From Streptosporangium sp. NBC_01495 (lineage in GTDB: Bacteria; Actinomycetota; Actinomycetes; Streptosporangiales; Streptosporangiaceae): a DNA stretch of 64,000 nucleotides. The first letter of the stretch is position 1; the number at the start of each line of letters is the position of its first letter. A program made the position numbers and the translations under genes. The notes beneath the pieces were generated by a model. That model did not search any database. It saw nothing but the letters and a program-made list of their open reading frames with translations, and was not told the origin of the DNA. Below are positions 24,223 through 43,459 of this stretch, piece after piece. The stretch spans positions 248,001 to 312,000 of the forward strand of contig NZ_CP109430.1 of the NCBI RefSeq assembly GCF_036250735.1, read 5' to 3'.

Positions 24223-25770
24223 ATGCCGGTGATGAAACCTACTCAGCTCTGGACGTCGTTCGCCCGGCAGGTCGACGCCCGCCCCGACGCCACGGCTCTC
24301 GTGGCGAGGGGCAGGCACACCTCCTACGGCGAACTTGCCGACCTCGTGGCCGACGCGTCGGCCCGCCTCGACCTACTCGACACGACCGGCGGCGAGCCGA
24401 TCGGCGTGCCCGCCACGAAGACACCCCGGACCATCGCCATGGTGCTGGCGTGCCTGAGGGCGGGCCTCCCGGTGGTGCTTCCCTCGGCCACCCTGCCCGC
24501 CGCCACCCTGCAACGCCTCCTGGCCCGGGCCGGGTGCCGCCACGTCGTCAGCGCCGACGACGTCGGCCCCGCCCGAGCCGGTGCCGCGCCGGCCCCGGCT
24601 CCCGCCATCCCCGTGAACCCCGACGACACCGCCTTCGTGCTCACGACGTCGGGGTCCACGGGCCTCCCCAAGTTGGTGCCGCTCACCGCGGGCGCGGTCG
24701 AGCGTTTCGCCGACTGGGCCGCCGCCCGGTTCGATCTGGGCCCCGAGTCCTCGGTTCTCAACTACGCCCCGCTGAACTTCGACCTCTGCTTCCTCGACGT
24801 CTGGGCCACGCTCCACCACGGTGGCCGGGTCGTCCTCGTCGACCCGGACGCCGCCACCAACGGGCGCCACCTGCTCGACACCATCGACGACAACGCCGTG
24901 ACGGTCGTGCAGGCCGTGCCGATGGCCCACCAGCTGCTGGTCGACGCCGCCGGCGATCCGGCCCGGCAGCTCACGTCGGTCCGTCACGTCCTCTTCACCG
25001 GCGACCACATGCCCGCTCGCTGCCTGGCCCGGCTGCCCGCCGTGTTCCCCGGCAGCCGCTTCTACAACGTCTACGGCTGCACCGAGACGAACGACAGCTT
25101 CCTGCACGAGGTGGACCGGGACGCGCTGCCGACCGACGGCGTCCCGCTCGGCACGCCGCTGCCCGGCGTCGACGCGGTCGTCCTCGACGATGACGGCGCC
25201 GTGGTCACGGGGCCGGGGCGGGGCGAGCTGGTCGTCGCCACGCCGTTCCAGTCCGCCGGCTACCTCGGTGCCGACCCGGCGGCGCCCGGTCCGTTCGTGG
25301 ACGCCCCCGCGGGCCGTCCGCCGGGCGCCGCCACCCGCTTCTACCGGACCGGCGACGTCGTGCGCCGCGACGGCGACGGCGTCCTTCACCTCGAGGGGCG
25401 CAACGACTTCCAGGTCAAGGTGCGTGGCACCCGGGTGAACACCGCGGTGGTCGAGCAGGTGCTGCTCGACCACGACGAGGTCGCCGAGGCCGTGGTCCTC
25501 GCCGTCCCCGACCCCGTCGCCGGCCACCTGCTGCACGCGGTCCTGCGCCGGGTGCCGGGGGCGACCGTCAAGACGCTCGGCCTCCGCCGGCACTGCGCCC
25601 AGCACCTGCCTACGGCGGCCATCCCGTCGACCCTCCACCTGTCCGAGAGCCCCTTGCCCCGCACGTCCACCGGCAAGGTCGACCGCCAGTCCCTCGGCCA
25701 GTCCCTCGGCCAGACCCCCAGGTCCCCTCACCCCGAGGTGACCGTCGCCAGAAAGGAAACAGCACGATGA
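24223..25770 (+). CDS. Stand-alone adenylation enzyme (NRPS-type AMP-forming ligase)
   Basis: 515 residues (alternative start Met4 at 24232). All core motifs are present: A3 TTSGSTGLPK (141-150), A5 YGCTE (284-288), A7 YRTGD (374-378), A8 GRNDFQVKVRG (392-402) and the catalytic Lys485 in PRTSTGKVDR (A10). Asp187 in NFDLC aligns with the Asp that binds the alpha-amino group in amino-acid-activating domains, so the substrate is probably an amino acid. By eye the pocket reads D-L-L in its first three code positions, as in prolyl-type ligases, but later positions (V, D, S) differ. No carrier or condensation domain is fused. Its stop overlaps the carrier-protein gene (ATGA), the probable acceptor. 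First gene of the operon 24223-30843. Confidence 0.92.
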   Translation: MPVMKPTQLWTSFARQVDARPDATALVARGRHTSYGELADLVADASARLDLLDTTGGEPIGVPATKTPRTIAMVLACLRAGLPVVLPSATLPAATLQRLLARAGCRHVVSADDVGPARAGAAPAPAPAIPVNPDDTAFVLTTSGSTGLPKLVPLTAGAVERFADWAAARFDLGPESSVLNYAPLNFDLCFLDVWATLHHGGRVVLVDPDAATNGRHLLDTIDDNAVTVVQAVPMAHQLLVDAAGDPARQLTSVRHVLFTGDHMPARCLARLPAVFPGSRFYNVYGCTETNDSFLHEVDRDALPTDGVPLGTPLPGVDAVVLDDDGAVVTGPGRGELVVATPFQSAGYLGADPAAPGPFVDAPAGRPPGAATRFYRTGDVVRRDGDGVLHLEGRNDFQVKVRGTRVNTAVVEQVLLDHDEVAEAVVLAVPDPVAGHLLHAVLRRVPGATVKTLGLRRHCAQHLPTAAIPSTLHLSESPLPRTSTGKVDRQSLGQSLGQTPRSPHPEVTVARKETAR

Positions 25771-26027
25771 AGCACGAGGTCCTCATCAAGAGCTTCCTGA
25801 TCAAGGAGTTCATGCCCGACGTCGAGGCGTCGGAGCTCGCCACCGATTACGACCTGCTCGCCAACGGCGTGGTCGACAGCCTCGGGCTGCTCAAGCTCAT
25901 CGCCTGGATCGAGACCGAGTTCGACATCACCGTCGACGACGCGGCCCTCGACCCGGACAACTTCCGCACGATCGACGCCATCGACGCCTTCGTGGCGCGG
26001 GTGTCGGTCCCGGTCGAGGCGAGCTGA
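25767..26027 (+). CDS. Acyl/peptidyl carrier protein 1
   Basis: 86 residues with the phosphopantetheine site GVVDSLGLLKL, Ser38. The four-helix carrier pattern is complete, with acidic helix II/III (WIETEFDITVDDAALDPDNF). Its ATG overlaps the adenylation-enzyme stop, and it is followed after 3 bases by the TrpD-type gene. Most likely it receives the aminoacyl group from the adenylation enzyme and presents it to the acyl-CoA dehydrogenase encoded four genes downstream, as in pyrrole-2-carboxyl pathways (inference). Confidence 0.93.
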   Translation: MKHEVLIKSFLIKEFMPDVEASELATDYDLLANGVVDSLGLLKLIAWIETEFDITVDDAALDPDNFRTIDAIDAFVARVSVPVEAS

Positions 26028-26030
26028 CCC

Positions 26031-27077
26031 ATGCACGACGCGTTCGCCGCCCTGCTGGCCGGTCGCCCGGTCGACACCGCGACGTGGTCGTCCTTCTGGG
26101 ACGAGCTGAGCGCCGACACGCTGGACCCCGGCGAGCCGGCGTCGCTCATGGCGGCACTCAGCCTCGATGTGGTCCCCGAGACGCTCACCAACCTGGTGCG
26201 GTCGCTGCACGCGCGCCGCACCGGGCCGGTCTCCTCCTTCCCCGGGGCGGTCAACGTGGTCGGCACGGGCGGCGGCGTATCGACGTTCAACGTCTCCACC
26301 GCCGCCGCCTTCGTCGCCGCCACGCTCGGGGCGCAGATCGTGAAGACCGGGTCGCGGGCCTACTCCAGCAAGTACGGCTCGATCGACCTGCTCGTCCGGC
26401 TCGGCATCCCGCTCACGAAGTCGTACGACGAGACGGCGGCGTCGCTGGCCCGCCACGGCATCGCCTTCGCCGGCTACTTCGTGTACCCGGTCGAGTTGAC
26501 CGTGCTGGCCAGGCGCATCATGCCGCTGCCCATGCGGCCATACGGCCGGGTGCTCAACACGCTGGGCCCGTTCCTGCCCGCGCTGCCGGGGACACGCCAG
26601 CTCACGGGCCTGTCGAACCCCGGGCTCCTGCCGCTGGCCCAAAGGCTGGCGGCGGCGGTCGACGACCGCGAGGTCTGGCTGTGCACCAACGACATCGGTG
26701 CCGACGAGCTGATCAGCTTCGCCGACAACGTCGTCCACCCCGGTGCGGGCATGCCCGAGTTCCAGCTGAGCCGTCGCAACCTGGACACGGCCGACGGCAC
26801 CCTGTCGGACCTGGCACCGGTGCCCGAGCCCGACCGGGTCATCGAGCACTTCCTGGACGTCGTGTCTGGGCGGGCGGGCGAGGTGGCCACCCAGACCGTC
26901 GCCCTCAACGCCGCCGCCCTGGCGATCGCGGCCGAGCGGGAGACCGGTTGGCGCCCCGCCATCGCCTCGGCGATGGCGGCGATGCGGGACGGCGCGGTGC
27001 GCGACCTGATCGACGCCGTGCGAGCCGGCGGGTCGGCACCGTCACCGCTGGTGAGCGGGGTGGCGTCCGGTGGCTGA
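26031..27077 (+). CDS. Divergent anthranilate phosphoribosyltransferase (TrpD type)
   Basis: 348 residues. The PRPP loop is VGTGGGVSTFNVSTAAAF (77-94), against the usual GTGGD..TFNIST, so the metal/PRPP Asp is replaced by Gly. The following block is KTGSRAYSSKYGSIDLL (105-121), where normal TrpD has KHGNRA.SS..GSAD. The His and the anthranilate-contacting Asn are Thr and Ser. Later NDIGADELISF keeps the DE pair that binds magnesium. The second substrate Arg (PVR before the LGPL motif) appears replaced. The fold is TrpD, but the acceptor is probably not anthranilate. It overlaps the TrpA-type gene by 8 bases and belongs to a Trp-type enzyme set with no TrpE/G/B. Confidence 0.85.
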   Translation: MHDAFAALLAGRPVDTATWSSFWDELSADTLDPGEPASLMAALSLDVVPETLTNLVRSLHARRTGPVSSFPGAVNVVGTGGGVSTFNVSTAAAFVAATLGAQIVKTGSRAYSSKYGSIDLLVRLGIPLTKSYDETAASLARHGIAFAGYFVYPVELTVLARRIMPLPMRPYGRVLNTLGPFLPALPGTRQLTGLSNPGLLPLAQRLAAAVDDREVWLCTNDIGADELISFADNVVHPGAGMPEFQLSRRNLDTADGTLSDLAPVPEPDRVIEHFLDVVSGRAGEVATQTVALNAAALAIAAERETGWRPAIASAMAAMRDGAVRDLIDAVRAGGSAPSPLVSGVASGG

Positions 27078-27885
27078 CATGTTTCCCCGCCCGCCGGGCC
27101 TGGCCGTGTTCCTCAATGCGGGCGACCCGCCGTTCGACGTGCTCGAGGACATCGCCGACATGCTGGACGACCACGAGGTCGACGTCCTGGAGCTGGGGGT
27201 GCCGTTCCCCGACTCGATCAGCGACGGGCCGGTGATCCGCCGGTCCGCCGACCGGGCACTCGCGGCCGGGACCGATCTCCAGGACGCTCTCGCCTTCGTC
27301 GAGCGCTCCCGGAGCCGGCACCGCCACCTGCGGGTGGTCGTCCTCGCCGACTGGGCGCACACGGTCCGTCCCCGCTCGATGGCGCAGGTCGTCACGGCCA
27401 TCGCCGAATCCGGGGCGGCCGGGGCGCTGCTCCACGGCGCACCGCCCCGGGTCCGCCCGGAGTTCTACGACCGGGCCGGCGCCGCCGGGCTGCCCGTCGT
27501 CACCACGTGCTACGCGTCCTCGCCCCCCGGGGTCGTGGCCGAGGCGGGGGCCCACGCCTCGGCCTACGTGTACCTGGTGACGCACTACGGCGCCAGCGGC
27601 GCCGGCCCGGCGCCCGACCCGGGGGCGCTCCGCGCCCCCATCGACGCCCTGCGGGCCCTGACCGACGCGCCGATCGCGGCCGGCTTCGGGGTGCGCACGG
27701 CGGCCGACGTCGAGCGGGTGCACGCGGCCGGTGCTGACGCCGCCGTCGTCGGCAGCACCGTCGTCGCCTGCGCCGAGGCGTCGTTCACCGGCGGTGGCGA
27801 CGTCGTCGCCGACCTCGCCGCCCTCGTCACCAACCTCCGTCCCAACCACCATCCCCGGTCCCTCCGACCGGTTCCCCACCCCTGA
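27070..27885 (+). CDS. Tryptophan synthase alpha-chain (TrpA type) paralogue
   Basis: 271 residues. The TIM-barrel core reads LAVFLNAGDP, then VDVLELGVPFPDSISDGPVI. The two catalytic residues of TrpA, Glu49 and Asp60, align with Glu41 and Asp52. Also present are VVLADW, ITHYGASG-like VTHYGASGAG (phosphate loop), PIAAGFGVRTAADV and AAVVGSTVV. Retro-aldol cleavage of an indole-glycerol-phosphate-like compound is therefore chemically possible. No TrpB gene is in the cluster, so the freed heterocycle would be released rather than channelled into an amino acid, as with plant BX1/IGL (comparison, not proof). Confidence 0.88.
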   Translation: MADMFPRPPGLAVFLNAGDPPFDVLEDIADMLDDHEVDVLELGVPFPDSISDGPVIRRSADRALAAGTDLQDALAFVERSRSRHRHLRVVVLADWAHTVRPRSMAQVVTAIAESGAAGALLHGAPPRVRPEFYDRAGAAGLPVVTTCYASSPPGVVAEAGAHASAYVYLVTHYGASGAGPAPDPGALRAPIDALRALTDAPIAAGFGVRTAADVERVHAAGADAAVVGSTVVACAEASFTGGGDVVADLAALVTNLRPNHHPRSLRPVPHP

Positions 27886-27898
27886 AAGGATCAATCCG

Positions 27899-28273
27899 AT
27901 GATCGTGCGCAACCTGGAAAACGTCACCACCGTCGACTGGGGTAACGGCCTCAGCCGCCGCTTCCTGCTGGAGGCCGACGGCCTCGGCTACTCCGTCACC
28001 GACACCACGGTGACGGCCGGTACCAAGTCGCTGCTCGAGTACCGCAGCCACCTGGAGGCCTGCTACTGCATCGACGGCTCCGGCGAGGTCGTCGACCTCG
28101 ACGGCACGACGCACCGCATCACCCCGGGCACCCTCTACGCGCTCGACAAGCACGACGCCCACTACCTCATCGCCGACCCGGACGCCGACCTGCGCCTCGT
28201 GTGCGTGTTCTCGCCCGCCCTCCGGGGCGACGAGCGACACAGCCTCGACGCCGCCGGCCCCTCCGCTTACTGA
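27899..28273 (+). CDS. Ectoine-synthase-like cupin
   Basis: 124 residues starting MIVRNLENVTTVDW, nearly the canonical EctC start. AAAGGA lies 8 bases upstream. Strong EctC blocks follow: SRRFLLEADGLGYS..DTT, HLEACYCIDGSGEV, GTLYALDKHDAHYL and LRLVCVFSPAL. The iron-binding residues known from EctC (Glu57, Tyr85, His93) align with Glu53, Tyr80 and His88. EctC closes N-acetyl-diaminobutyrate to a cyclic amidine by loss of water. No ectA or ectB is present, so here it probably performs an analogous dehydrative ring closure on a pathway intermediate (inference). It lies between the TrpA-type and dehydrogenase genes. Confidence 0.9.
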   Translation: MIVRNLENVTTVDWGNGLSRRFLLEADGLGYSVTDTTVTAGTKSLLEYRSHLEACYCIDGSGEVVDLDGTTHRITPGTLYALDKHDAHYLIADPDADLRLVCVFSPALRGDERHSLDAAGPSAY

Positions 28274-28283
28274 GGCCGCGGGC

Positions 28284-29420
28284 ATGCGCACCTGGGACGA
28301 GGATCAGCTCGCACTGCGCGAGGGCATGGAGCGGTGGTGCCGCGACCTTGCCGTCACCGAGCACGACGCCGCCGGGACCAGTTTTTCGTGGGACGCGTGG
28401 AAGCTGGTCCGCTCGTCGGGAATACTCGGCCTGCCGTTCGACCCCGCCTGGGGCGGGGCCGGCGTCGACCTGCTCACCACCATGTTCGTGCTGGAGGCCC
28501 TGGGCGAGGGGTGCCGTGACGGAGGGCTGAGCTTCTCCGTCGCCACCAGCATCTGCAGCACGGGGGTCCCGCTCCAGCACTTCGGGACCGCCGAGCAGAA
28601 GGACCGGTACTTGCCCCAAGTGTGCTCGGGCGAGCTGATCGGCGCCCACGCCATCAGCGAGCCCGACACGGGGTCGGACGCCCTGAGCATGCGGACGATG
28701 GCCGTCCGGGACGGCGACCACTTCGTGCTCAACGGCAGCAAGAGCTTCGTGAGCAACGGCCCGATCGCCGATGTGGTCGTCGTCTACGCCCGCACCCGGC
28801 CCGAGGGCGGGGCGCTCGGCATCACCGCCTTCCTGGTCGAGACGGACACCCCCGGCTTCTCGGCCGGCCAGCCGCTCAAGAAGATGGGCCTCGCGTCCTC
28901 GCCGATGAGCGAGCTGTACTTCGACGACTGCCGGGTGCCCGCCAACCGGGCGATCGGCGGCGTCGGGCGGGGGTTCATGCTGCTCGAGCACGTCATGAAG
29001 TGGGAGATCCTCTGCTCCTTCATCATCAACGTCGGGGAGATGCAGCACCGGTTCGAGCGCTGCCTCGAGTACGCCCGGACGCGCACGCAGTTCGGCAAGC
29101 CGATCGGCTCGTTCCAGGCGATCTCCCACAAGCTGGTCGACATGCGCATCCGGCTCGAGACGGCGCGCCGTTGGCTCTACGACACGGCCGAGCGCCTCGC
29201 AGCCGGCGAGAACGTCACGATGGACGTGGCGATCAGCAAGCTGCTGACCAGCGAGGCCAACGTGGCCTCGGGGCTGGCGGCCATCCAGATCTTCGGCGGC
29301 AACGGCTACATGTCGGAGTACGGCCTCGACCGTGAGCTGGCCAACGCCGTGGGCAGCACCATCTACTCGGGCACGACGGAGATCCAGTACAACCGGATCT
29401 CCTCGATGCTGGGGTTGTGA
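28284..29420 (+). CDS. Acyl-CoA dehydrogenase (carrier-bound aminoacyl dehydrogenase candidate)
   Basis: 378 residues, full-length flavoprotein. Features: AISEPDTGSDALSM (FAD/substrate segment), GSKSFVSNGPIADVVVVYA, the C-terminal YARTRTQFGKPIGSFQAISHKL and IQIFGGNGYMSEYGLDRE, and the catalytic base Glu366 in YSGTTEIQ. The N-terminal layout (GILGLPFDPAWGG, then EGCRDGGLSF) recalls PltE/RedW enzymes that oxidise prolyl-carrier protein to the pyrrole. With an adenylation enzyme and carrier protein in the same operon, oxidation of a carrier-bound amino acid is the most economical role. Ordinary acyl-CoA oxidation cannot be excluded. Confidence 0.9.
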   Translation: MRTWDEDQLALREGMERWCRDLAVTEHDAAGTSFSWDAWKLVRSSGILGLPFDPAWGGAGVDLLTTMFVLEALGEGCRDGGLSFSVATSICSTGVPLQHFGTAEQKDRYLPQVCSGELIGAHAISEPDTGSDALSMRTMAVRDGDHFVLNGSKSFVSNGPIADVVVVYARTRPEGGALGITAFLVETDTPGFSAGQPLKKMGLASSPMSELYFDDCRVPANRAIGGVGRGFMLLEHVMKWEILCSFIINVGEMQHRFERCLEYARTRTQFGKPIGSFQAISHKLVDMRIRLETARRWLYDTAERLAAGENVTMDVAISKLLTSEANVASGLAAIQIFGGNGYMSEYGLDRELANAVGSTIYSGTTEIQYNRISSMLGL

Positions 29421-29422
29421 CC

Positions 29423-30127
29423 ATGCTGCTCAAGGTGTGCGGCGCCACCAGCCGCGACGACGTCGCCCTGCTCGGGGCCGCGGGCGCCGACCTGATCGGC
29501 CTGTGGTACGGGGTTCCGGGCGGCCCCGCCGACCTGTCCCTCAGCCGCTTCGCCGCCCTGGCGGAGGCGTGCCGCACCGCCGAGGTGGCCGCGGCGCGGC
29601 CGGCACCGGATCCGATGCTGGTCACGTTCCTGCGGGACCCGGACGCCATCCTCGACGCCGCCCGCACCGCAGGCGTGCGATGGCTGCAGTTGCACGGCTA
29701 CCAGCCCCCGGGCGTGGTGGCGGCGCTCAAGCGGGGATGGCCGGAGGCCACGGTGGTCAAGGTCCTCCACGTCACCGGCGACGCCTGTGTCGAGCGCCCG
29801 CTGCTGGCCTCGTACGAGCGGGCGGGGACCGACGTGTTCCTGTTCGACGCCACGAGCGCGGCAGGGCGGGTCGGGAGTACCGGCCTGTCGCTCGATTCCG
29901 ACGTGGTGATCGACCTGGCCGAGGCGACCACTCGGCCGTTCCTCGTCGCCGGGGGCATCTCGGTCGCCAACCGCTCGCGCTACGAGAAGGTGGTTGCCCA
30001 CCCCCGCTTCGTCGGTGTCGACGTCGACACGGCGGCACGGGACCAGACGGGAGCGTTCTGCGCCGACAGCGTCAGCAGCATCCGGCACCACTGGTGTGCT
30101 GTCCCCGACGTGGAGGAGGTCGCCTGA
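29423..30127 (+). CDS. Phosphoribosylanthranilate isomerase (TrpF type) paralogue
   Basis: 234 residues. ATG 29423 lies 2 bases after the dehydrogenase stop. The TIM-barrel start LLKVCGATSRDDV gives the catalytic Cys6 (KICG in TrpF). The general acid/base Asp is Asp142 in LFDATSAAGRVGSTG. Phosphate-binding VAGGIS and GVDVDT loops are present. The usual F..SPR motif that positions the anthranilate ring is replaced by GVPGGPADLSLSRF, a longer loop. The Amadori chemistry should be intact, while ring recognition may differ. It shares one base with the TrpC-type gene. Confidence 0.88.
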   Translation: MLLKVCGATSRDDVALLGAAGADLIGLWYGVPGGPADLSLSRFAALAEACRTAEVAAARPAPDPMLVTFLRDPDAILDAARTAGVRWLQLHGYQPPGVVAALKRGWPEATVVKVLHVTGDACVERPLLASYERAGTDVFLFDATSAAGRVGSTGLSLDSDVVIDLAEATTRPFLVAGGISVANRSRYEKVVAHPRFVGVDVDTAARDQTGAFCADSVSSIRHHWCAVPDVEEVA

Positions 30128-30843
30128 TGGCGCCATCGTTCGTGGACGCCCTGATGGGCGCCCATCGTCCTGTGATCATGGAGCTGAAACCCCGCTCGGC
30201 CGAGGGCGAGGACCTGTTCCGCGGCCGGTCGCCTGCCGAGATCGTGGCCCGCTACGAGGCCGCCGGCGCTCCCTGCCTGTCGGTCGTCACCGGCCGCTGG
30301 TTCGGGGGCGACGTCGGCCTGCTGGCCGAGGTGGTCAGGTGCACCGAGCTGCCCGTCCTGCAGAAGGACTTCGTCACCAACGCGGGCCAGCTGCAGGCGG
30401 CGAGCGACCTCGGTGCGTCCGCGGTGCTGCTCACGGCCGCGCTGCTGCCGAGGGTCGCGCTGGCGCGGCTGGCCGAGCGCGCCCTCGCGCTCGGTCTCAC
30501 CCCGTTCATCGAGGTGGCCAATCCCGCCGAGGTCGAGGCCCTCCCGTCGTGCGAGGGGTGCGTGGTGGCCGTCAACAACAAGGACATCCGCGTCCGCGAG
30601 CGAGGGGACGCCGACGTGGACCGCAGCCGCCGGCTGCTGCCGGCCGTGCGGCGGACGGGGTCGCCGTGCCCCGTCAGCGCCAGCGGTATCGACGACCCGT
30701 GGGTGGCCGCCGAGCTGCTCAACGCGGGCTACGCCGGACTGCTGGTAGGAACCCACCTGCTGCGGGCCGACCGCCTCGAGTCATGGTGCGAGGAGCTGGA
30801 CGACCTGCGTCATGCGTCGTCCGCGCCCCGTCGAGTGGGCTGA
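30127..30843 (+). CDS. Indole-3-glycerol-phosphate synthase (TrpC type) paralogue
   Basis: 238 residues. Catalytic-site residues of TrpC are present as Glu19 and Lys21 (VIMELKPRS), Lys80 (LQKDF), Glu129 (FIEVANP) and Asn150 (AVNNKD). The usual SESGI is SASGI here (184-188), so the position of Glu210 is Ala185. The N-terminal extension that covers the TrpC active site is shortened; the protein starts just before beta-1. It would decarboxylate and close a CdRP-like intermediate to an indole-like glycerol phosphate. Last gene of the operon; its final 125 bases overlap the convergent regulator gene. Confidence 0.87.
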   Translation: MAPSFVDALMGAHRPVIMELKPRSAEGEDLFRGRSPAEIVARYEAAGAPCLSVVTGRWFGGDVGLLAEVVRCTELPVLQKDFVTNAGQLQAASDLGASAVLLTAALLPRVALARLAERALALGLTPFIEVANPAEVEALPSCEGCVVAVNNKDIRVRERGDADVDRSRRLLPAVRRTGSPCPVSASGIDDPWVAAELLNAGYAGLLVGTHLLRADRLESWCEELDDLRHASSAPRRVG

Positions 30844-33800
30844 GCGTCAGCTCGTCCCACTCGACGGCGGAGGGAACCCCCAGCTCGTCGGCGGCGGCGA
30901 TCACCCGGGCGGTGAGGTCGTTGGCCTCCAGGTACCGCCCGTCTGCGACCAGGGCACGGGCGACCCGCAAGGGTCGCTCCTGGTCGTACGGGTCGAGCTT
31001 CATGGCCGACTCGAGCTGGTCCATCGCCTCCTCCATGTCGCCCGCCTCGTGGGCGGCCGTCAGCAGGACGTCGATCAGGCCGAGCGCCCGCCGGCGGACG
31101 ACCTCGCGGCGCTGGGCGATGAGGTCGTCGTAGAGGTCGTCGGGCAGCAGCGGCCCGGCGAAGGCGGCGATGGCGACGCGGGCACGGGAGACGCGCTCGT
31201 TGTCCTGCGTCGCGGCGGCGGCCCGGGCCAGGTCCTCGAACGAGTGCAGGTCGACCTTGCACGGGGACAGGCACAGCATCTGCCCCCTGCGGGTGACGAG
31301 CGAGCCGTAGGTGGCCCGGGCCCGGGCGAGGACGTTCTTGAGGCGGCGCTGGCCGACTCCTGGCTTCTCGCCCGGCCACAGCGTCTCGACCATGGTCTCG
31401 ACCCGGACAGGCCCGCCTGCGAGCACGAGGTGCTTCACCAGCTGGCTGGCCCGGCCGGCTCCGTGAAGCACACCGTGGCCCTGGCGGACCTCGAACCCGC
31501 CCAGCACCCGCACCTCGTAGCCGCAGCCGTTGGCGGAGGCACCGTTGGAGGCGCCGTTGGTGGAGGCCCTGTTGGCAGGGGCACCGTTGAAGGCGCCGTT
31601 CGTAGGGACACCGTTGGAGGCGCCGTTGGAGGAGGCCCTGTTGGCAGGGACACCGTTGAAGGCCCCGTTGGAGGAGGCGCCGTTGGAGGCGCCGGTCACA
31701 ACCGCCGGGGGTAGCCGGATGGCCGACCGCAGAATGCCGACCACGCGACGCTCACGGCGGTCGAGCAGGTCGGGGTGGCCGAGGCTGGCCGCCCGGTCGA
31801 GGGCGACCAGCAGGCACTGGTTGGCGGCGTCGATGTCGCCGGCGGCGTGGCGGACGTAGCCCGTCAGCAGTTCGGCCTTCCACCGCAGGCCGGGGGCGAT
31901 CTCGCCGTCCTCAAGCATGCGCTGCAGGACGTCGGCCGCCTCGGGCTCGCCCCGGCGGGCGCCGATGAACGCCTCGGTCAGCGCCAGGGTCATCGGGTTC
32001 TCGATGCGGTGCTCGCGGGCGGCGGCGAGCAGCCGGGCCGCGGGCGCGTCGGCCCCGACCACGGCGCAGGCGTCGGCGGCCTCGCACAGGAACAGCAGGC
32101 CGCCGCCGTCGTGGATCATCATCTGGCCGAGATGGGCCTCGGCCCGGGCCAGCTGCTCGAGCACCCCGGACGCGTCGTGGTCGTTGGCCGCCACGATCAG
32201 GCGGGTCCAGGCGGCGTGGCCGGTCACCCAGTCGATGCGCAGCAGCTGGGCGAGCGGCATGGCGTCGTCGAGGATGGCAAGCGCCCGCTCTGCCTCGCCG
32301 CTGAGCGCCAGCAGCCGGGCCTCCATGACCAGGCACAGCATGCGGTCGAACTGCGTGTCGCTGGTGGTGCCGAGCCGGCGCAGCAGCAGGGCGCCCTCGC
32401 CGCTCTTGCCCAGGGCGGACAGGACCTGGGTGGCGAGGCCCCGCTGGACCGCGGCGACGCGGGCGGGCTCGCCCAGCTCGCCCCACGTGATGGCGGCCTG
32501 GCGCAGGGCGTTCTCGGCCCGGCGCAGGCTCGGCCCGTCGGGGCAGTCGGACAGGGCCACGCCCAGGGCCTCGAGCAGGCTGGCCTGGGCGCGGGTGCCC
32601 TCGGCGGTCGTGTCGAGGAGCCGTTCGACCTGGGCGAGCACGTCTGGGTCGTGCAGCAGCGCCCGCTGGATCAACCACTCGCCCTCGACCTCGATTGCGA
32701 GATCGTCGTCGGTGTTCTGCTCGCGCACGACGCGTAGGGCCCGGCCGATGACCTCGCCCTCCTCGGCGAGCTGGCCGACGTTGCGGTGGGTGCGGGCCAG
32801 GTGCAGCAGCACCTGGGGCGCGGCCTGGGCCGCGGGCCCGAGACGGGCCATCAGGTGGATGAACTCGACCGGGTCGAGCTGGTTGATGCGCGAGGTGGGC
32901 AGCTCGGCGATGAGCGTGGCCGCCTGTTCGGGGTCGCCGCTGTCGACCAGCAGGCTGGCCGCGGCCAGCTCGGCGCCCTGGGATATCAGCAGCGGGGCGG
33001 CCCTCTGGGCAATGGCCGGATCGAGCGGTGCGAGCGCGGCCAGCCCCTCCTTCAGCTCGATGCAGAGCCGCGACCAGCCGTCGGCGCCGACGGCGAACGG
33101 AACGCCCGCCCGGATGAGGCGCCGCAGCAGCCCCGGCTCGCCCAGCCCCTCGACGAGGCTGTCGTTGACCATCGGGAACGCGGCCACCTGGGTCAGCAGG
33201 TAGCGGTCGGCCGGGTCGAGGTCGGCGGCGTAGTGGTCCATCAGCTGACGGATCAGGCCGGGGTACCGGAGCAGTACCGTGGCGGCCTCCATGCGGTCGG
33301 ACGCCCGGGCGAGCCTGCGTAGCATCACGAGCAGCAGCGCGACCCAGCCGCCCGACAGGTCGTGCAGGGTGGTGGCGAGCCGCTCGCCGTCCTCGTCGCC
33401 GACCTCAAGGCGGGCGAGGGCCGTGGCCTCCTCCTGCGTGAGGCGCAGGTCCTGGGTGTTGAAGCGCTCGGCGGTGCCGCGGAACTCCATGGCCGCGAGT
33501 GGCGCGGGCAGCAGGCGGCTGCTGACCAGGATGCGCAGGGGCGGTGTGCCGTCCTGCGCCAGGTCGGCCAGCCAGGCCGCGGCGTCGTCGGTGAGCGCCT
33601 CGGCGTTGTCGACGACCAGGAGGCCCGGCCCCGTCGACGCGGTCAGTAACTCGCCGACCCGCCCGGCGGCACCGGCGACCGGGGTCCGTGGCCAGCCGGT
33701 CCGCTGCTCGGCTACGTTGAGGATCGCGGATGTCAGCTCGTCGACCGTGACCGGGTGATCGCGCGGCAGGCGTACCTCGAGGCCACCACCGGCGCGGGCG

Positions 33801-33922: not shown

Positions 33923-33976
33923 ATAGAGGCCGTCTCCTCTCATGTCAGCTGAAATGGAGATCTACTCCGCCGAAGG

Positions 33977-35932: not shown

Positions 35933-36485
35933 GAAAGTTACCCCCCAGTCTGGAAGTGCCTGTGTGGGCAGGATCCGACGTGGTGGTACCAGCGGGGTAC
36001 CGGCCCGCGGGGACCGCGGTGGTACCGCCGGGCTGCCGACTTGCACGCCCGTTGCGCGCCTACGGTGGCGATCGCCCCCGTGAGATCGCCCCTGTGACGA
36101 CGATTACGACCGATTGGGTGGGCCAAGGCCGAGGATGTGGATGAGCCGGTGCGGTCACGCTGTGGGCGGAGCGATCAGCAGCGGCTGCCGGGGCTCGCCC
36201 TGCACGCCCACCGGCATCCGAAGGGTGCGGTCACGCCGTGGGCGGAGCGATCGGCAGCGGCCTCGCCGCCGGGTCCGTCACGAGCTCGGCGGGCACCGTC
36301 GACGTCGTGAGCCCGCACGCCGGGACGCTCACGGGCATCTTCGCCCGACAGTGCGAACACGTCCGCAAGAGCAGCAGGTCGGTCGGGTCGTGCTCGCCGT
36401 CTGAGGCCGTGGGCTTGCGAAACGCTTGCGCCGGCACTCATACGTTGCCAGTCGATAAGCCGATCACGATGACGAGGAGCGTGCC
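35933..36485. promoter_or_regulatory. Divergent regulatory region with several direct repeats
   Basis: 550 bases between the SARP gene and the ACP2 gene. Direct repeats: GATCGCCCC(C/T)GTGA twice in tandem (36070-36083, 36084-36097), and a 38-base element at 36148-36185 and 36224-36261 that differs at two positions. Each 38-base copy begins GGTGCGGTCACGC. Direct repeats are the expected target of SARP regulators. A possible promoter TTGCGC / TACGTT (17 apart) precedes the ACP2 gene around 36425-36455. No gene is seen. Confidence 0.6.
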
Positions 36486-36764
36486 ATGCAGCTTCCCACA
36501 CTCGAGGTGTTCGTCGACCGCTTGGTGGCCGTGAGCCGGATCGAGGGCTTCGACCCCGACACGCCGCTGACCACGTCCGGGGTCGATTCACTCGACCTGA
36601 TGGAGTGGGTCTACGACATGCAGGAGCGGTACCCGGACCTGGGACTGGACGAGTCGATCGTTGAGAGCGTCAACGACACCGTCACCTTCCGGGTCATCCA
36701 CCAGCAGGTGCTGGCCGCCCACGGCGTCACCCCGGTCGCCTCCGCGACCGGCGGCGACGCCTGA
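36486..36764 (+). CDS. Acyl carrier protein 2
   Basis: 92 residues; the phosphopantetheine site [10 protein letters not shown] places Ser35. GAGG lies 7 bases upstream of the ATG. Helix II/III ([14 protein letters not shown]) is acidic. It starts the ACP-KAS III-KR operon and probably carries the malonyl extender loaded by the downstream free-standing acyltransferase. Confidence 0.93.
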
Positions 36765-36777: not shown

Positions 36778-37779
36778 GTGTCTGGCATCGGCATCATCGG
36801 GTGGGGCAAGTACCTACCCGAGGGCAGGCTCACCAACGCGGAGCTCGCCACGCGCTTCAACGTGGACGACGACTGGATCGTGCAGCGCACCGGCATCCGG
36901 GAGCGCCGGATCGTCGGACCGGGCGAGACCACCGCCTCGCTGGCCGTCGAGGCCGGTCGGCGGGCGCTCGAGCACGCCGGCCTGCGACCCGACGAGATCT
37001 CACACCTCATCCTCGCCTCGGGCACGCCCGAGCAACTGTCGCCGGCCACGTCCGCGTTCGTGCAGCGCGAACTGGGCACGGCGGGCGGCGCCCACGACGT
37101 GAACGCCGAGTGCGCCAGCTTCGCCTACGGCTTCGTGGTCGCGGCCGGGCTCATGGCGATCGACCCCCGTCCGATCCTCCTGATCGGGACCGACACGCAC
37201 TCGCTCGTCGTCAACCCCGAGGACCGGGACCTGGGAGTGCTGATCGGCGACGGGGCCGGTGCGGTCGTCCTGGCGCCCCACGACCGCAGCTGGCTGCAGA
37301 AGTGGGACATGGGGTGCGACGGCACAAAGACCGAGAGCCTCAAGATCTTGGCCGGTGGCAGCCGGCTGCCGGCGAGCGAGGAGACGCTCCGCCAGAATCT
37401 GCACTACGCGCAGATCAAGGGCAACGAGATCTACCTGAACGCCGTCCGCTTCACCGTGGGTTCGGTGAAGCGGACGCTCAAGGCGGCGAACCTCGGGCCC
37501 GACGACATCGACCACCTGCTGCCGCACCAGGCGAACATGCGCATCATCGACTCGATCCTCGAGCACAGCCGGGTGCCCCGGGACCGCTTGATCACCAACA
37601 TCGAGTACTACGGCAACACCGGGGCGGCGTCGATGCCGATAGCCCTCGCCGAGGCGCTCGACGCCGGGCGCATCCAGAAGGGCGATCGCATCATGTTCGC
37701 GGCGTTCGGTGCCGGCATGGTGTGGGTCACCGCGCTGATCGAGTGGGGCGCGGGCGAGCCGACGGAGTGGCGGTCATGA
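36778..37779 (+). CDS. Beta-ketoacyl-ACP synthase III
   Basis: 333 residues from GTG 36778 with GGAG 5 bases upstream. The FabH catalytic triad is complete and in canonical positions: Cys112 (NAECASFAYG), His250 (LLPHQANMR) and Asn280 (YYGNTGAAS). The N-terminal IIGWGKYLPEGRLTN and RTGIRERRI are FabH-like. It condenses a starter acyl thioester with malonyl-ACP. In this context the starter may be the oxidised aminoacyl group from the first operon (inference). Its stop overlaps the ketoreductase ATG. Confidence 0.93.
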   Translation: MSGIGIIGWGKYLPEGRLTNAELATRFNVDDDWIVQRTGIRERRIVGPGETTASLAVEAGRRALEHAGLRPDEISHLILASGTPEQLSPATSAFVQRELGTAGGAHDVNAECASFAYGFVVAAGLMAIDPRPILLIGTDTHSLVVNPEDRDLGVLIGDGAGAVVLAPHDRSWLQKWDMGCDGTKTESLKILAGGSRLPASEETLRQNLHYAQIKGNEIYLNAVRFTVGSVKRTLKAANLGPDDIDHLLPHQANMRIIDSILEHSRVPRDRLITNIEYYGNTGAASMPIALAEALDAGRIQKGDRIMFAAFGAGMVWVTALIEWGAGEPTEWRS

Positions 37780-38546
37780 CCGGCCCCGCCGCGGGCGCCC
37801 GCCCCATCTCGGCGCAGCGCCCGGAGAAGCCGATCGCCCTCGTGACCGGCGCGTCCGGAGGCTTCGGTGCCGCCGTGGCGATCGAGCTCGACAGGCTCGG
37901 GTGCCGCGTCGCCCTCCACTACAACCGCGCCGAGGACGGCGCCCGGGAGGTCAGCGAGCGCCTCACGAACGACTCGATCATCGTCCAGGCCGAGGTGGGC
38001 AGCTGGGACTCGGTCAGCGCCCTCCACCGCCGGGTCACCGAGGAGTTGGGTGAGGTCGACATCCTCGTCAACAACGCGGCCATCCGGAAGGACGCGCTGA
38101 TGATGGGCCAGTCGCCCGAGGTGTGGGGCGAGGTCATCCAGACGAACCTGATGGGCACCTTCCACATGTGCCGTGCCATGCTGCCGTCCATGGTCAAGCG
38201 GCGGTGGGGGCGGATCATCAACGTGGTGTCGCCGTCGGCCCTGGTCGCCACATCCGGCCAGACGGCCTACGCCGCCTCCAAGTCCGGAGTGATCGCGCTC
38301 ACGCGCACCCTGGCCACCGAGTGCGGTCGGCGCGGGGTGACGGTGAACGCCATCTCGCCCGGGTTCATGGAGACGCGGATGACGGCGAACGCCACCGAGA
38401 AGTTCCGCCAGAGCCTCGCCGCCAACCTGCCGGTACCCCGGCTGACCACCCCCGAGGAGGTCGCGCCCGCCATCGGCGTCTTCCTGGACAACGACTATGT
38501 GACCGGGCAGGTGCTCAGCGTCGACGGTGGGATCTCCCTCACCTGA
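37776..38546 (+). CDS. 3-oxoacyl-ACP reductase (FabG-like SDR)
   Basis: 256 residues; ATG overlaps the KAS III stop. NADPH motif TGASGGFG (24-31), NNAAIRKD, and the catalytic Ser/Tyr165/Lys169 in SGQTAYAASKSG. The C-terminal VPRLTTPEEVAPAIGVFLD...GQVLSVDGGIS is a standard FabG ending. It should reduce the beta-keto group formed by the neighbouring KAS III. A strong hairpin lies 100 bases downstream. Confidence 0.93.
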   Translation: MTGPAAGARPISAQRPEKPIALVTGASGGFGAAVAIELDRLGCRVALHYNRAEDGAREVSERLTNDSIIVQAEVGSWDSVSALHRRVTEELGEVDILVNNAAIRKDALMMGQSPEVWGEVIQTNLMGTFHMCRAMLPSMVKRRWGRIINVVSPSALVATSGQTAYAASKSGVIALTRTLATECGRRGVTVNAISPGFMETRMTANATEKFRQSLAANLPVPRLTTPEEVAPAIGVFLDNDYVTGQVLSVDGGISLT

Positions 38547-38820: not shown

Positions 38821-38854
38821 GCCTCAGAGCGGCGAAGCCAGGGAGGACAGCGAC

Positions 38855-40078
38855 ATGACGGTCACCGACATCGCGCACGGTGCGGCTCGGCTGCTGTGCT
38901 GGGCGGGGGCCGACTCGGCGGGTGAACGTGCGGCCCGTGCCAGGGTTGCCGACGCGCTGCGCGCCGGGGCTCCGGCGCCCCGTCCGGTTCCGGGGCCGAT
39001 GCGCGGGGCGGTGGTCACGACGGCGGCCCGCGCCCTCGACGACCTCGCGGCCGCCCCGGTGCGGCGGGTCCCGGTCGACGGGCCCCGGCCGGTCGTCCTG
39101 CTGCTGCCCGGCCAGGGATCCCAGTACCACGGGATGGCGACCGGGCTGTACCGCGACGAACCCGTGTTCCAGGCAGCCGTCGACGACGTCCTGGGGGCGT
39201 GGGGGGCCGAGGGCGAGGCGATCCGCGCCGACTGGCTCGGCACCGGCGCCGGTCCGGATATCCCGATCGACGATGTGCGCCGTGCCCAGCCGCTGCTGTT
39301 CGCCGTCGACCATGGGCTGGGCCGGCTGCTACTGAGCTGGGGCGTCACGCCGGCCGAGGCGTTGGGGCACAGCGCGGGCGAGGTCGTGGCGGCGACCCTG
39401 GCCGGGGTGTTCACCGTCGCGGAGGCCGTCGCACTGATGCGCGGCCGGGTGCGTGCCGCCGCACCGATTCCGCCCGGCGGGATGCTCGCCGTGGCCGCGT
39501 CCGTCGACACGCTCGGCCCGTACCTGTCCGGACAGGTCGGAGTGGCGGCCGTGAACGCCGCACGGCGGACGACGCTGGCCGGGCCGCGCGCCGAGCTGGC
39601 CGCCGTGGCGGCCCGCCTCGCCTTCGACGGGGTGACCGTACGGCCGGTCCCGGCCACCACCCCGTTCCACAGCCCGGCGATGGAACCGGCCGTCGCGGCG
39701 GCCGAGCTGGCGTTCGACGCGTCGCCCCGGCCGGCCCGGTTCCCCGTCCGGTCCGGCTACACCGGGCGGTCGCTCACAGCGGACGACGCGGGCTCCGCGC
39801 GATTCTGGGCCCGTCAGATAGCCGACACCGTCCACTTCGGGCCCGCACTGACCGCGCTGCTCGACGGCGGGGATCGGCTGCTCGTCGAGTGCGGACCGGG
39901 CCGCACCCTGTCCGCCCTCGCCCTCCAGCAGCGCGTGGTGCGAACCGGGGGGAGCGCGGTGCTGTCCATGCTGCCCGGCGACCAGTCCGACCGTTCCGCG
40001 ACCCTCAAGGTCGCCGCGGCCCTGTGGCGCGAGGGCCACGATCTCGTGCTCGACGACCAACCGGCAACGGCGTCGTGA
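38855..40078 (+). CDS. Free-standing PKS-type acyltransferase
   Basis: 407 residues from ATG 38855 with GGGAGGA upstream. The AT domain spans about 78-390: LLLPGQGSQYHGM, the nucleophile Ser173 in GHSAGEV, the conserved Arg region ALMRGRVRA and PFHSPAM with the catalytic His. The motif that usually tells malonyl from methylmalonyl reads TPFH, closer to the malonyl HAFH type, but this is weak. The first 75 residues resemble a KS-AT linker, so it looks like an AT excised from a modular PKS. It would load ACP2 in trans. Confidence 0.9.
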   Translation: MTVTDIAHGAARLLCWAGADSAGERAARARVADALRAGAPAPRPVPGPMRGAVVTTAARALDDLAAAPVRRVPVDGPRPVVLLLPGQGSQYHGMATGLYRDEPVFQAAVDDVLGAWGAEGEAIRADWLGTGAGPDIPIDDVRRAQPLLFAVDHGLGRLLLSWGVTPAEALGHSAGEVVAATLAGVFTVAEAVALMRGRVRAAAPIPPGGMLAVAASVDTLGPYLSGQVGVAAVNAARRTTLAGPRAELAAVAARLAFDGVTVRPVPATTPFHSPAMEPAVAAAELAFDASPRPARFPVRSGYTGRSLTADDAGSARFWARQIADTVHFGPALTALLDGGDRLLVECGPGRTLSALALQQRVVRTGGSAVLSMLPGDQSDRSATLKVAAALWREGHDLVLDDQPATAS

Positions 40079-41088: not shown

Positions 41089-42582
41089 ATGCACACCGAG
41101 CTTACCCGCCGGAAAATCTTGTCCGGCCTGGTTGTTGGAGCGGGCGCGACGGTCTTGGGGTGGAACTCCACCACCCAAGCGTGGGCCACCACCTCCGGTT
41201 CGACGTCAGGCATCCAGCCGGTTCCCCCCCTCGACGGCACGCTCGTCCTCCCCGCCGACCCGTCGGCGTTCACCGAGGACTTCGGCCACCTGTTCACGCG
41301 GCAGCCCCAGGCTGTCCTGACCCCCGGCTCGGTGAACGACATCCAGAAGGTCGTTCGCTACGCCCGCAACAATCGGATCCCCATAGCCGTCAACGGCCAG
41401 AGCGGGACCGGTACCGAGGACCGCGAGTCGCACTCGCACTACGGGCAGGCCCTGGTCGACGGCGGCATCGCCATCGACCCCAAGCCGCTCGGCTCGATCC
41501 ACAGCATCTCGCAGGGCATCGCCGACGTCGACTCCGGCGTCACCTGGTCGACGCTGGCGCTGCAGGCGCTCGAGTCCGGCCAGACGCTGCCCGTCTACAA
41601 CGACTTCGCCCACCTGTCGATCGGCGGCACGCTGAGCGTCGGCGGCCTCGGCGGCACCAGCCAGCGCTACGGCTCGCAGGCCGACAACGTGAAGTGGCTC
41701 CAGGTGGTCACGGGCACCGGCGAGCTGGTCACGTGCTCCCGCGACAGGAACCGCGAGCTGTTCGAGGCCGTCCTCGTCGGCGGCGGGCAGTTCGCCATCA
41801 TCGTGCGGGTCGGCATCAAGCTGATCCCGGCGAAGACGACCGCCCGCTCGCTCGAGTTCACCTACACCGACCGGGCGGCCTTCCTGCGGGACTCGATGGC
41901 CATCATGCGGGCCGGCGTGGTCGACGACCAGAACGGCTACGCCGAGCCCAAGCCCGGTGGCGGCTGGACCTACCGCCTGGCGCTCGGCATCTTCTACTCG
42001 GCGCCCGCCCAGCCCAACGTCGCCGCCGTACAGGCCGTGCTCTCGCCCCAGGCGACCGCCGGCCCGACGGCCGACCTGCCGTTCCGCGACTGGCTGCTGC
42101 GCTTCGACCCGAACTGGGCGGCCCTCAAGGCCGCCGGGTTCTGGAGCAGCCAAAAGCCGTGGCTCATGATGTTCGTCGGCTCCAGGAACACCCCGGCCTA
42201 CCTCGACACCGTGCTCGGCGAGCTGACGGCCACCCAGATGGGCCCCGGCCCGGTCCGGATCTCGCCGATGGACACCCGGTCGCTCACCCGGCCCAGCTTC
42301 ATGCTGCCCCGGTGCCAGACGAACGAGTTCTTCGAGGTCAGCCTCATCCGGATCCCGGCCCCGAACCACCCTGACATCCCGGGCCTGCTGTCGCAGAACC
42401 GCCGCTTCTACGACCGGGCCGTCGCGCTCGGAGCCAAGCGGTACCTCGTCGGCTCGGTGCCCTCGATGACCCGTGCCGACTGGCGGGCCCACTACGGGTC
42501 GCGCTGGAACCATCTCGTCGACCTGAAGCGCCGATACGACCCGGCTTCGATCCTCACGCCGGGCCAGGGGATCTTCGGCTGA
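41089..42582 (+). CDS. Tat-exported FAD-linked oxidase (cytokinin-dehydrogenase/BBE-like)
   Basis: 497 residues. A twin-arginine signal is present: TRRKILSGLVVGAGATVLG, Arg7-Arg8, mature form from about residue 34. The PCMH FAD domain reads PQAVLTPGSVNDIQKVVRYARNN, then a GQALVDGGIAID block. SHSHYGQA aligns with the GHS..GQA of cytokinin dehydrogenases, so His115 may bind FAD covalently. YNDFAHLSIGGTLSVGGLGG and VVTGTGELVTCS are also CKX-like, and the C-terminal YDPASILTPGQGIF is the family ending. It probably oxidises an amine or heterocycle of the pathway outside the membrane; the exported position suggests a late step. Confidence 0.9.
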   Translation: MHTELTRRKILSGLVVGAGATVLGWNSTTQAWATTSGSTSGIQPVPPLDGTLVLPADPSAFTEDFGHLFTRQPQAVLTPGSVNDIQKVVRYARNNRIPIAVNGQSGTGTEDRESHSHYGQALVDGGIAIDPKPLGSIHSISQGIADVDSGVTWSTLALQALESGQTLPVYNDFAHLSIGGTLSVGGLGGTSQRYGSQADNVKWLQVVTGTGELVTCSRDRNRELFEAVLVGGGQFAIIVRVGIKLIPAKTTARSLEFTYTDRAAFLRDSMAIMRAGVVDDQNGYAEPKPGGGWTYRLALGIFYSAPAQPNVAAVQAVLSPQATAGPTADLPFRDWLLRFDPNWAALKAAGFWSSQKPWLMMFVGSRNTPAYLDTVLGELTATQMGPGPVRISPMDTRSLTRPSFMLPRCQTNEFFEVSLIRIPAPNHPDIPGLLSQNRRFYDRAVALGAKRYLVGSVPSMTRADWRAHYGSRWNHLVDLKRRYDPASILTPGQGIFG

Positions 42583-42627
42583 CCCACTGACGGTCCACCC
42601 CGTTCCCTCCAGTAAGGAGACCCCGCA

Positions 42628-43002
42628 ATGCCGGCACAACGCCCGGAAGACATCCCAGGCCTCATCGCCGCGGCCTTCAACGCCAACGACCCGCAGGCCA
42701 TGCTCGACCTGTTCGATCCGGACGGCATCCTCGTCACGCCGCCGGACGGCACGCACGAGGTGGGGCTTGAGGCCGTCGCCAAGTCCCTGAAGGCGATGTT
42801 CGCTGTCATCACGGCAGCCGACATCACGTTGACCAGCGCGATGCGGTCCGGCGACATCGCCATGACGCACGCCGACTGGCACCTCACGGGAAAGGACGAG
42901 GCCGGCGAGCCGATCGACCTCAGGGGCAAGGGCACCGTGGTGTCCCGCCAGCAGCCGGACGGCACGTGGCGGATCGTCTTCGACGATCCGGTCGGGGCCT
43001 GA
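42628..43002 (+). CDS. SnoaL-like / DUF4440 (NTF2-fold) protein
   Basis: 124 residues with AAGGAGA 7 bases ahead of the ATG. Pattern: IPGLIAAAFNANDPQAMLDLFDPDGILVTPP, then ADITLTSAMRSGDIAMTHADWHL, RGKGTVVSRQQPDGTWRIVFDDP. This is the YybH-like NTF2 fold, which includes cyclases, isomerases and hydroxylases such as SnoaL. Role in the cluster cannot be fixed; a cyclisation or isomerisation step is possible. Confidence 0.85.
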   Translation: MPAQRPEDIPGLIAAAFNANDPQAMLDLFDPDGILVTPPDGTHEVGLEAVAKSLKAMFAVITAADITLTSAMRSGDIAMTHADWHLTGKDEAGEPIDLRGKGTVVSRQQPDGTWRIVFDDPVGA

Positions 43003-43015
43003 AGGCGGGGTCGGC

Positions 43016-43459
43016 ATGGGGAATCCTTTCAGCGTCCGCATCCAGGTGCGGGGCTACGAACTCGACCGGCAGGGTCATCTCAACCAGGCCGTGTACATGC
43101 AGTACGCGGAGCACGCCCGCTGGCAGTTCCTGGAAGCAGCCGGCTTCACCTCGGACGTCCTGGGTGAAGCCGGTATCGGCCCGGTGCTGCTCAAGGCCAC
43201 CGTCCGGTTCCAGCGCGAGCTGCGGGCCGGCGACGAGGTCGACGTGGGCTGCGCCATCAGCGGGGGGCAGGGCAAGCTCGTCGAGCTCATGCAGCGCTTC
43301 CACACCCCCGATGGAATTCCGGTCGCCCGGATCGACTGCGTGATCGGGCTGCTCGACCTGGTCACGCGCCGCCTGCTCCCGGACCCGCGCGCCACGCTGC
43401 ACGAGCTGGCCACACGGCCCGACGTGCTCTCCGGCGCGACACCTGAGCGAGCGGGGTGA
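43016..43459 (+). CDS. Hotdog-fold acyl-thioesterase (4HBT type)
   Basis: 147 residues. The hotdog start IQVRGYELDRQGHLNQAVYMQYAEHARW holds the Asp/His/Asn cluster used by 4-hydroxybenzoyl-CoA-type thioesterases (Asp at the ELDRQGH position). It continues LLKATVRFQRELRAGDEV and ARIDCVIGLLDL. It follows the SnoaL-like gene by 13 bases and is the last gene of the cluster; the likely job is release of the acyl chain from ACP2 or editing of carrier proteins. Confidence 0.92.
   Translation: MGNPFSVRIQVRGYELDRQGHLNQAVYMQYAEHARWQFLEAAGFTSDVLGEAGIGPVLLKATVRFQRELRAGDEVDVGCAISGGQGKLVELMQRFHTPDGIPVARIDCVIGLLDLVTRRLLPDPRATLHELATRPDVLSGATPERAG

Follow-up and report, generated by a model that had tools for sequence, protein, structure and literature searches.

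The pyrrolopyrrole of kosinostatin (quinocycline B), an antibiotic of Micromonospora okii TP-A0468 (PMC8698034), has been attributed to two groups of genes: the kstB genes are assigned to nicotinic acid loading and conversion to a pyrrole, and the kstC genes to the joining of this pyrrole with phosphoribosyl pyrophosphate (PRPP) to give the pyrrolopyrrole (PMC7918784, after Ma et al. 2013). Replacement of ksnC3, a putative phosphoribosylanthranilate (PRA)-isomerase gene and TrpF homolog, is reported to abolish kosinostatin production (PMC13099267), and for another producer an antiSMASH table marks the kosinostatin region with "ectoine" (PMC7918784). Ectoine synthases (EctC) enter from a second direction, as the role of "orphan" EctC proteins is called unresolved in PMC5924519 and PMC6344544. 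Here we analyze a 64,000-nucleotide stretch of DNA (the window; positions 248001-312000 of the 11.1-Mb genome of Streptosporangium sp. NBC_01495, contig NZ_CP109430.1) that contains an eight-gene cassette at 24223-30843. With a probability of roughly 0.8, this is the pyrrolopyrrole cassette known from kosinostatin, and its product, bound to a carrier, is a pyrrolo[2,3-b]pyrrole acid (a bicyclic amidine) that is then probably extended by a line built on ketoacyl synthase III (KAS III).

Pfam scans of the window translations assigned a family to every gene named in the original prediction, a note made from the DNA letters alone, and upheld the placement it gave. The cassette, on the forward strand, opens with a free-standing adenylation (A) enzyme (AMP-binding; 24223-25770) and a peptidyl carrier protein (PCP, also CP1; PP-binding; 25767-26027). 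These are followed by a TrpD-like phosphoribosyltransferase (Glycos_transf_3; 26031-27077), a TrpA-like retro-aldolase (Trp_syntA; 27070-27885), an EctC-like cupin (Ectoine_synth; 27899-28273), an acyl-CoA dehydrogenase (ACAD) homologous to the prolyl-PCP dehydrogenases RedW and PigA (28284-29420), a TrpF-like isomerase (PRAI; 29417-30127), and a TrpC-like cyclase (IGPS; 30127-30843) that meets the TrpF-like stop in a TGATG junction. TrpF is the weakest of the family assignments (5.6e-9 in Pfam, 0.0013 against solved structures). Starts were revised relative to the first list of open reading frames (ORFs) for the EctC-like (27899) and TrpC-like (30127) genes and, farther downstream, for a ketoreductase (KR; 37776) and an acyltransferase (AT; about 38855).

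All eight genes occur in the window's order in M. okii TP-A0468 itself (locus L097), at 49-70% protein identity. There the cassette lies 7.5 kb from a type II ketosynthase (KS)-alpha/chain-length factor (CLF) pair, and the genome holds one cassette-type TrpC; a stop listed inside the TrpC match is simply where the gene ends. From the producer, the gene content and the neighbors, and with no accession match, we infer that L097 is the published kst locus. The A-enzyme codes, DLLQLTVDSK in the window and DLLQVTLDSK in M. okii, are equal at 8 of 10 positions, and the other two vary in the family. The core had been put forward as unrecognized and new; its genes are instead those of the kosinostatin pyrrolopyrrole, so that the link to a known compound, which the original prediction had itself named as counting against it, exists for the core. 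Its proposal of a fused pyrrole, built from an acid made by the ligase, carrier protein and dehydrogenase, is still the best reading. Gene identities, conservation of the cassette, catalytic residues and occurrence in the kosinostatin producer are the observations on which this reading rests.

The surroundings differ. The window lies at 0.25-0.31 Mb. Of 34 KS-alpha matches listed for the genome, the two best are at 4.34 and 6.78 Mb, and the nearest, of 30% identity, is at 0.43 Mb. With no type II polyketide synthase (PKS) near, the window cluster is therefore not a kosinostatin cluster; its core is probably the known cassette in a new setting, and its final product may be new. Among the literature matches listed, we found no compound other than kosinostatin with this gene set, and none that treats glutamine, EctC and the pyrrolopyrrole together. 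PriA/AdeK nucleoside clusters were set aside, as the abstract names no TrpD/TrpC/EctC set (PMC13055916).

The cassette recurs well beyond these two strains. Scanning 84,980 species genomes yielded 262 pattern matches, of which 153 encode a relative; 80 loci were kept, and their cassette content was judged with identity limits within 10 kb either side of TrpC. All eight genes are together in 64/80 loci, 61 of these in the window's order, and 7 of the 16 incomplete loci are cut by contig ends (L034, L043, L064, L072, L085, L087, L101). Six stretches lie on Streptomyces plasmids; five carry the eight genes (NBC_00441, S. xanthii, S. clavuligerus, NBC_00536 and NBC_01351), and the sixth (L021, S. 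albogriseolus) has, from the window's cluster, TrpC plus weak A and AT matches, with family assignments for TrpC and an ABC protein only among 8 ORFs scanned. A reduced cassette resides on a plasmid of Aliiroseovarius crassostreae (L019), comprising EctC, ACAD, A, acyl carrier protein (ACP), TrpD, TrpC, two genes annotated as KS and one of the transglutaminase family, with no TrpF or TrpA match within 30 kb. Thus, the cassette is a portable eight-gene building block that recurs in actinomycetes, occurs in reduced form in an alphaproteobacterium, and is found with at least three partner sets, for two of which we know of no product.

In a family-level search of 150 genomes, the strain's own included, TrpC-like proteins of at least 58% identity were found in three (its own; G098, 89%; G012, 58%), the remaining matches listed having 26-40% identity. 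An even sample of the phylum (396 genomes) contained an EctC-like match at 1e-10 in 40, and because the best besides the strain's own had 55% identity, the cassette is uncommon at phylum scale. Two side observations concern individual loci. A locus titled Rhodococcus rhodnii NRRL B-16535 (L036) and one of Kibdelosporangium aridum (L035) are 93-96% identical in DNA over most of 20 kb; this may reflect a very recent transfer, or mislabeling or contamination of the Rhodococcus assembly. The transglutaminase-family gene of L019 is common to S. xanthii and M. okii (there 45 kb from the cassette), and directly downstream in L019 the annotations include RHS-repeat and SpvB/TcaC N-terminal genes.

Residue conservation was assessed in alignments of the window with those among 88 loci passing identity and length limits (rows: A 74, CP1 78, TrpD 80, TrpA 77, EctC 80, ACAD 81, TrpF 84, TrpC 88), a selection that somewhat favors conservation. 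The attachment residue of the carrier protein, Ser38, is Ser in 78/78 rows. The A code reads D-L-L-Q-x-T-x-D-S-K, with D235, Q278, D330, S331 and K517 in 74/74 rows, L236 and L239 in 73/74 and T301 in 71/74 (PheA numbering, assigned by motif); the Aliiroseovarius enzyme, outside the 74-row set, has DLLHLAIDTK. At positions numbered after the canonical tryptophan enzymes, some of them anthranilate contacts there, TrpA keeps E49 and D60 (77/77), TrpF keeps Cys7, His83 and Asp126 (84/84), and TrpC keeps E51, K53, K110 and E159 (88/88), as well as N180 in the window, with Glu210 replaced by Ala (88/88) and Arg182 by Lys (84/88). The KHGNR motif of TrpD has Thr (65) or Ser (15) for His and Ser (78) or Ala (2) for Asn among 80 rows; the VRRE Arg aligns with I, V, L, A or T in 80/80, in a column adjoining an alignment gap where a nearby Arg could substitute. 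Opposite the Asp of GTGGD all 80 rows have a gap, and the Asp-Glu pair is kept in 80/80. EctC retains its metal ligands and Ser23, Arg25, Thr40, Tyr52, Glu57, Tyr84 and His92 in all 80 rows; Asn38 is replaced throughout (Thr 76, Cys 2, Ala 2), and Gly occupies the place of Trp21 in 80/80, each row having a Trp displaced to a nearby column.

Taken in sequence, the A enzyme would load an acid onto the PCP, and the EctC-like cupin and prolyl-dehydrogenase-like ACAD would convert it to a carrier-bound aminopyrrole. The TrpD-like enzyme would add phosphoribose to the amine, the TrpF-like enzyme would carry out an Amadori shift, the TrpC-like enzyme would close the second pyrrole ring, and the TrpA-like enzyme would remove glyceraldehyde-3-phosphate. 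The acyl unit would then probably be extended once by KAS III, AT and a second carrier protein (ACP2) and reduced by KR; release by a thioesterase and finishing by an exported flavin oxidase would follow, the whole line replacing kosinostatin's type II PKS. For this strain, we infer what each enzyme acts on, how the rings of the bicycle are numbered and everything that follows it. Proline, suggested as substrate by relatives of the ACAD and the A enzyme, was set aside since its ring NH cannot undergo the Amadori step.

Which acid is loaded is a separate matter. Our refinement, to which we give even odds, is that the first ring comes from L-glutamine and that TrpC-like closure loses H+ and water, not CO2. 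Gln-S-PCP would be cyclized by the EctC-like cupin to 5-amino-3,4-dihydro-2H-pyrrole-2-carboxyl-S-PCP and aromatized by the RedW-like ACAD to 5-aminopyrrole-2-carboxyl-S-PCP; a 5-aminopyrrole, being an enamine-type amine, would be plausible for TrpD, TrpF, TrpC and TrpA chemistry. Asp235 is a mark of A domains for amino acids, so that the code, fixed at D235, Q278, D330, S331 and K517 in the kosinostatin enzyme as well, is of amino-acid type, although it is not known to match a glutamine code. The best-scoring free-standing match of the A enzyme among solved structures is an L-proline PCP ligase. The best matches of the ACAD are likewise prolyl-PCP dehydrogenases (NCBIfam NF045652, 1.6e-115; solved structure 4irn, 9.9e-88), below the equivalog cut-offs (385.9 versus 650 bits for NF045652, 383.6 versus 500 for NF053553); by its sequence it is a relative rather than a member of the RedW/PigA equivalog, and a carrier-bound amidine ring would resemble a RedW-type substrate.

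The EctC homolog in the same operon suggests cyclic amidine formation, as EctC is described as forming 5-amino-3,4-dihydro-2H-pyrrole-2-carboxylate from L-glutamine in a side reaction, though one that is slow, reversible, of very low efficiency and with an equilibrium far toward glutamine (PMC5924519, PMC6344544); PMC4795551 describes the reaction as involving two glutamine molecules. Asn38, said to be conserved in canonical EctC (PMC6344544), contacts the substrate carboxylate in the P. lautus enzyme, and Arg25 holds that carboxylate via a water (PMC5924519/PMC6344544). Replacement of Asn38 in every row is compatible with a thioester substrate, and Thr40, Tyr52 and the metal ligands are intact; retention of Arg25 and displacement of Trp21 point the other way. 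Moreover, six orphan EctC proteins from outside the cassette carry Cys (3), Thr (2) or Asn (1) at position 38, making it an unclean marker. The arithmetic fits: five carbons from glutamine and two from ribose (C1'-C2') add up to the seven needed for the bicycle with its carboxyl, and each shared gene is used once with none left over. The fuller proposal is tentative and, in our estimate, a little short of an even chance: the EctC homolog cyclizes Gln-S-PCP, TrpD-F-C-A fuse the second pyrrole without decarboxylation, this origin replaces nicotinic acid, part of the orphan EctC proteins gain a function, and a KAS III line takes the bicycle on to a new family of small alkaloids.

Of six orphan EctC stretches from proteobacteria, four (L124, L125, L127, L129) lie near nonribosomal peptide synthetase, type I PKS or adenylate-forming genes, and two (L126, L128) adjoin genes annotated as biotin-carboxylase family. 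In the A domains beside them no glutamine code is clear; Asp330 of the cassette recurs in two N-terminal ones, too thin a likeness to use. EctC-like cupins may have a wider role on activated amino acids.

An origin of the first ring in nicotinic acid, which the A enzyme would load before the ring is opened, contracted to a pyrrole, deformylated and passed to the Trp-like enzymes, is in our estimate less likely than not. Feeding experiments on the nicotinic acid and ribose origin of kosinostatin were reportedly done. Later kosinostatin papers state this origin, against a glutamine source (PMC5321127, PMC8400222, PMC7918784). However, the A code, with its invariant Asp235, differs from PLPAQGVVNK, the code of DhbE and MxcE, which are reported or assumed to use nicotinate. 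Neither an oxygenase nor a ring-opening hydrolase is among the eight shared genes, compared over about 10 kb either side. The proposed deformylase KstB7 is described as absent from the cluster of 28ISP2-46 (M. robiginosa) and as unlikely to be involved (PMC7918784).

Whether the cassette works with its neighbors is a further issue. Downstream lie genes for ACP2 (PP-binding; 36486-36764), a FabH-like KAS III (36778-37779), a FabG-like KR (SDR; 37776-38546), a discrete AT (38855-40078, from a proposed start; DNA conservation with G098 begins at 38841), an FAD oxidase resembling cytokinin dehydrogenase, with a twin-arginine-like N-terminus judged by eye (41089-42582), a SnoaL-like protein (42628-43002) and a 4HBT thioesterase (43016-43459), all on the forward strand. 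This second half is common as a whole with G098 (78-92% protein identity) and is kept with the cassette in part in L031 and L033. The ACP-KAS III-KR trio accompanies the cassette in L031, L033, L016, L020, L022, L025 and L080, ACP and KAS III do so in L104, and KAS III and KR in L066; both the trio and the FAD oxidase are present in the window, L016, L020, L022 and L080. Because they recur with the cassette, they are probably part of the pathway.

That the halves are instead unrelated neighboring clusters, with the KAS III part making a product of its own, seems unlikely. Two regulators do stand between them, nothing in the 100 kb around the M. okii locus matches KAS III, AT, oxidase, SnoaL or thioesterase of the window at E 1e-6, and KAS III occurs in just 5/80 loci (L031, L033, L066, L080, L104), most stretches reaching 10 kb from TrpC. 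Against this, both halves are kept together in G098, and KAS III with ACP and/or KR accompanies the cassette in the nine further loci listed above.

Less likely still is a second tryptophan-like pathway making a simple or substituted indole from an anthranilate-type acid: the TrpD, F, C and A homologs are all there with their core catalytic residues, but the anthranilate-site His, Asn and Arg of TrpD (the last beside a gap) and Glu210 of TrpC are replaced throughout, and neither EctC nor a prolyl-type dehydrogenase is needed for an indole. The original prediction was thus sound in holding that the Trp-like enzymes are not the tryptophan pathway, less so in allowing anthranilate or indole as such. 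The genome has its own trp genes elsewhere, so the cassette is not its tryptophan pathway: a trpC (6719078), trpB (6717764), trpA (6716934) run, a separate trpD (6997725), and TrpE-family matches at 6417086 and 5770466. The TrpE family also includes PabB. As claimed, no TrpE, TrpG or TrpB family was found among 20 window translations scanned with Pfam.

Several points weigh against the identification with the kosinostatin cassette and its extension by KAS III. Nine of the 80 loci are incomplete though uncut (L049, L066, L078, L081, L091, L095, L105, L109, L110): L066 lacks A and TrpF, L078 EctC, L081 TrpA, L091 five genes, and L109 and L110 four each. The TrpC-like gene stands alone in L049, L095, L105 and the plasmid stretch L021, so its presence is no proof of a cassette. 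The kosinostatin gene assignments are those given in later papers, and in what order and to what end KAS III, AT, KR and oxidase act is a guess. To our knowledge, no metabolite is known for any window-type cluster.

The contexts of the 80 loci are varied. Counts are lower bounds, as most stretches extend only 10 kb from TrpC (the KAS III of L016 lies farther): alpha-oxoamine synthase (AONS)+KS+MaoC 38, none of the markers 21, transglutaminase 11, KS+MaoC 4, type II PKS 3 (one with transglutaminase), KAS III without AONS 2, and MaoC alone 1. Among the 38, KAS III occurs in 3, two of which also have the oxidase. This large cluster family, which joins the cassette to AONS, a FabF-like KS and a MaoC dehydratase, includes L016, L020 and L022; the cassette of L016 is adjoined by a cyclopropane-synthase-like methyltransferase and by a flavin monooxygenase whose best NCBIfam match, a pentalenolactone D synthase, falls below cut-off. 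We know of no product for this family. In a tree of seven joined cassette proteins (70 rows; a quick method with several long branches, to be read for broad groups only), one fully supported group unites the window with L023/G098, L031, L032 and L033, a supported group of nine from type II PKS and transglutaminase contexts contains the pair of M. okii and L103, and most other rows come from AONS+KS+MaoC contexts. Members of the window-type group, which takes in Micromonospora, Streptomyces and two genomes from the same family as the window, share 81-92% DNA identity over the parts compared, suggesting recent transfer between genera; because portions of the block are this similar in four relatives, the gene set is not chance.

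The cluster spans 21187-43459, its upstream edge placed by Pfam and by conservation beside the cassette in relatives. The boundary gene encodes an AraC-type regulator with a Cupin_6 domain (21187-22182, reverse strand; kept in L023, L032 and L033), followed by an NmrA-family NAD(P)-binding reductase (22235-23044, forward; ergot_EASG match below cut-off; kept in L023, L031, L032 and L033). Of the two large SARPs predicted between the halves, both on the reverse strand, the protein encoded at 33977-36046 has the usual SARP order (BTAD, AAA_16); the other (30719-33943, 1074 amino acids, kept in G098) departs from it, as its BTAD domain is C-terminal (897-1023) and a weak NTPase match near the N-terminus is below cut-off. 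The 3' ends of this gene and the TrpC-like gene overlap head on by 125 bases (30719-30843). A DDE transposase lies at 16290-17702, about 3.5 kb outside the AraC gene, and no Rfam family reached its gathering score in 20000-45000.

Chemistry known from one rare antibiotic thus recurs as a portable building-block cassette with different partner enzymes. The core chemistry is already known; what is new is likely the setting, the breadth of the family and the EctC/glutamine route. The last bears on two questions, the origin of the kosinostatin bicycle and the role of orphan ectoine synthases, some of which would gain a function if the route is true. The original prediction described the cluster well overall and gave EctC no role.

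Set beside known systems, the locus combines familiar parts. Like the prolyl-to-pyrrolyl trios RedM/RedO/RedW, PltF/PltL/PltE and PigI/PigG/PigA, it has a free-standing A enzyme, a PCP and a RedW/PigA-like dehydrogenase, but differs in its A code (DLLQxTxDSK), an extra EctC-like cupin and four Trp-like enzymes. The latter are homologous to TrpD-F-C-A of tryptophan biosynthesis and share their core catalytic residues, yet differ at substrate-site residues, and no TrpE, TrpG or TrpB was found in the cluster. The cupin scores above the NCBIfam cut-off for the ectoine synthase family and shares with it the metal ligands and most residues of the substrate site, but its Asn38 is replaced and its Trp21 displaced. 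No other ectoine-synthase match in the genome exceeds the Pfam cut-off, which makes the cupin an "orphan" EctC, and, with no ectA or ectB among the cluster genes scanned, it fits the sense in which PMC6344544 and PMC5924519 use the term. Closest of all is the kosinostatin kstB/kstC region of M. okii, where, as in the window, A and PCP adjoin TrpD/F/C/A-like genes with EctC and ACAD inside the cassette; there a type II KS-alpha/CLF pair adjoins it, whereas none lies near the cassette of the window.

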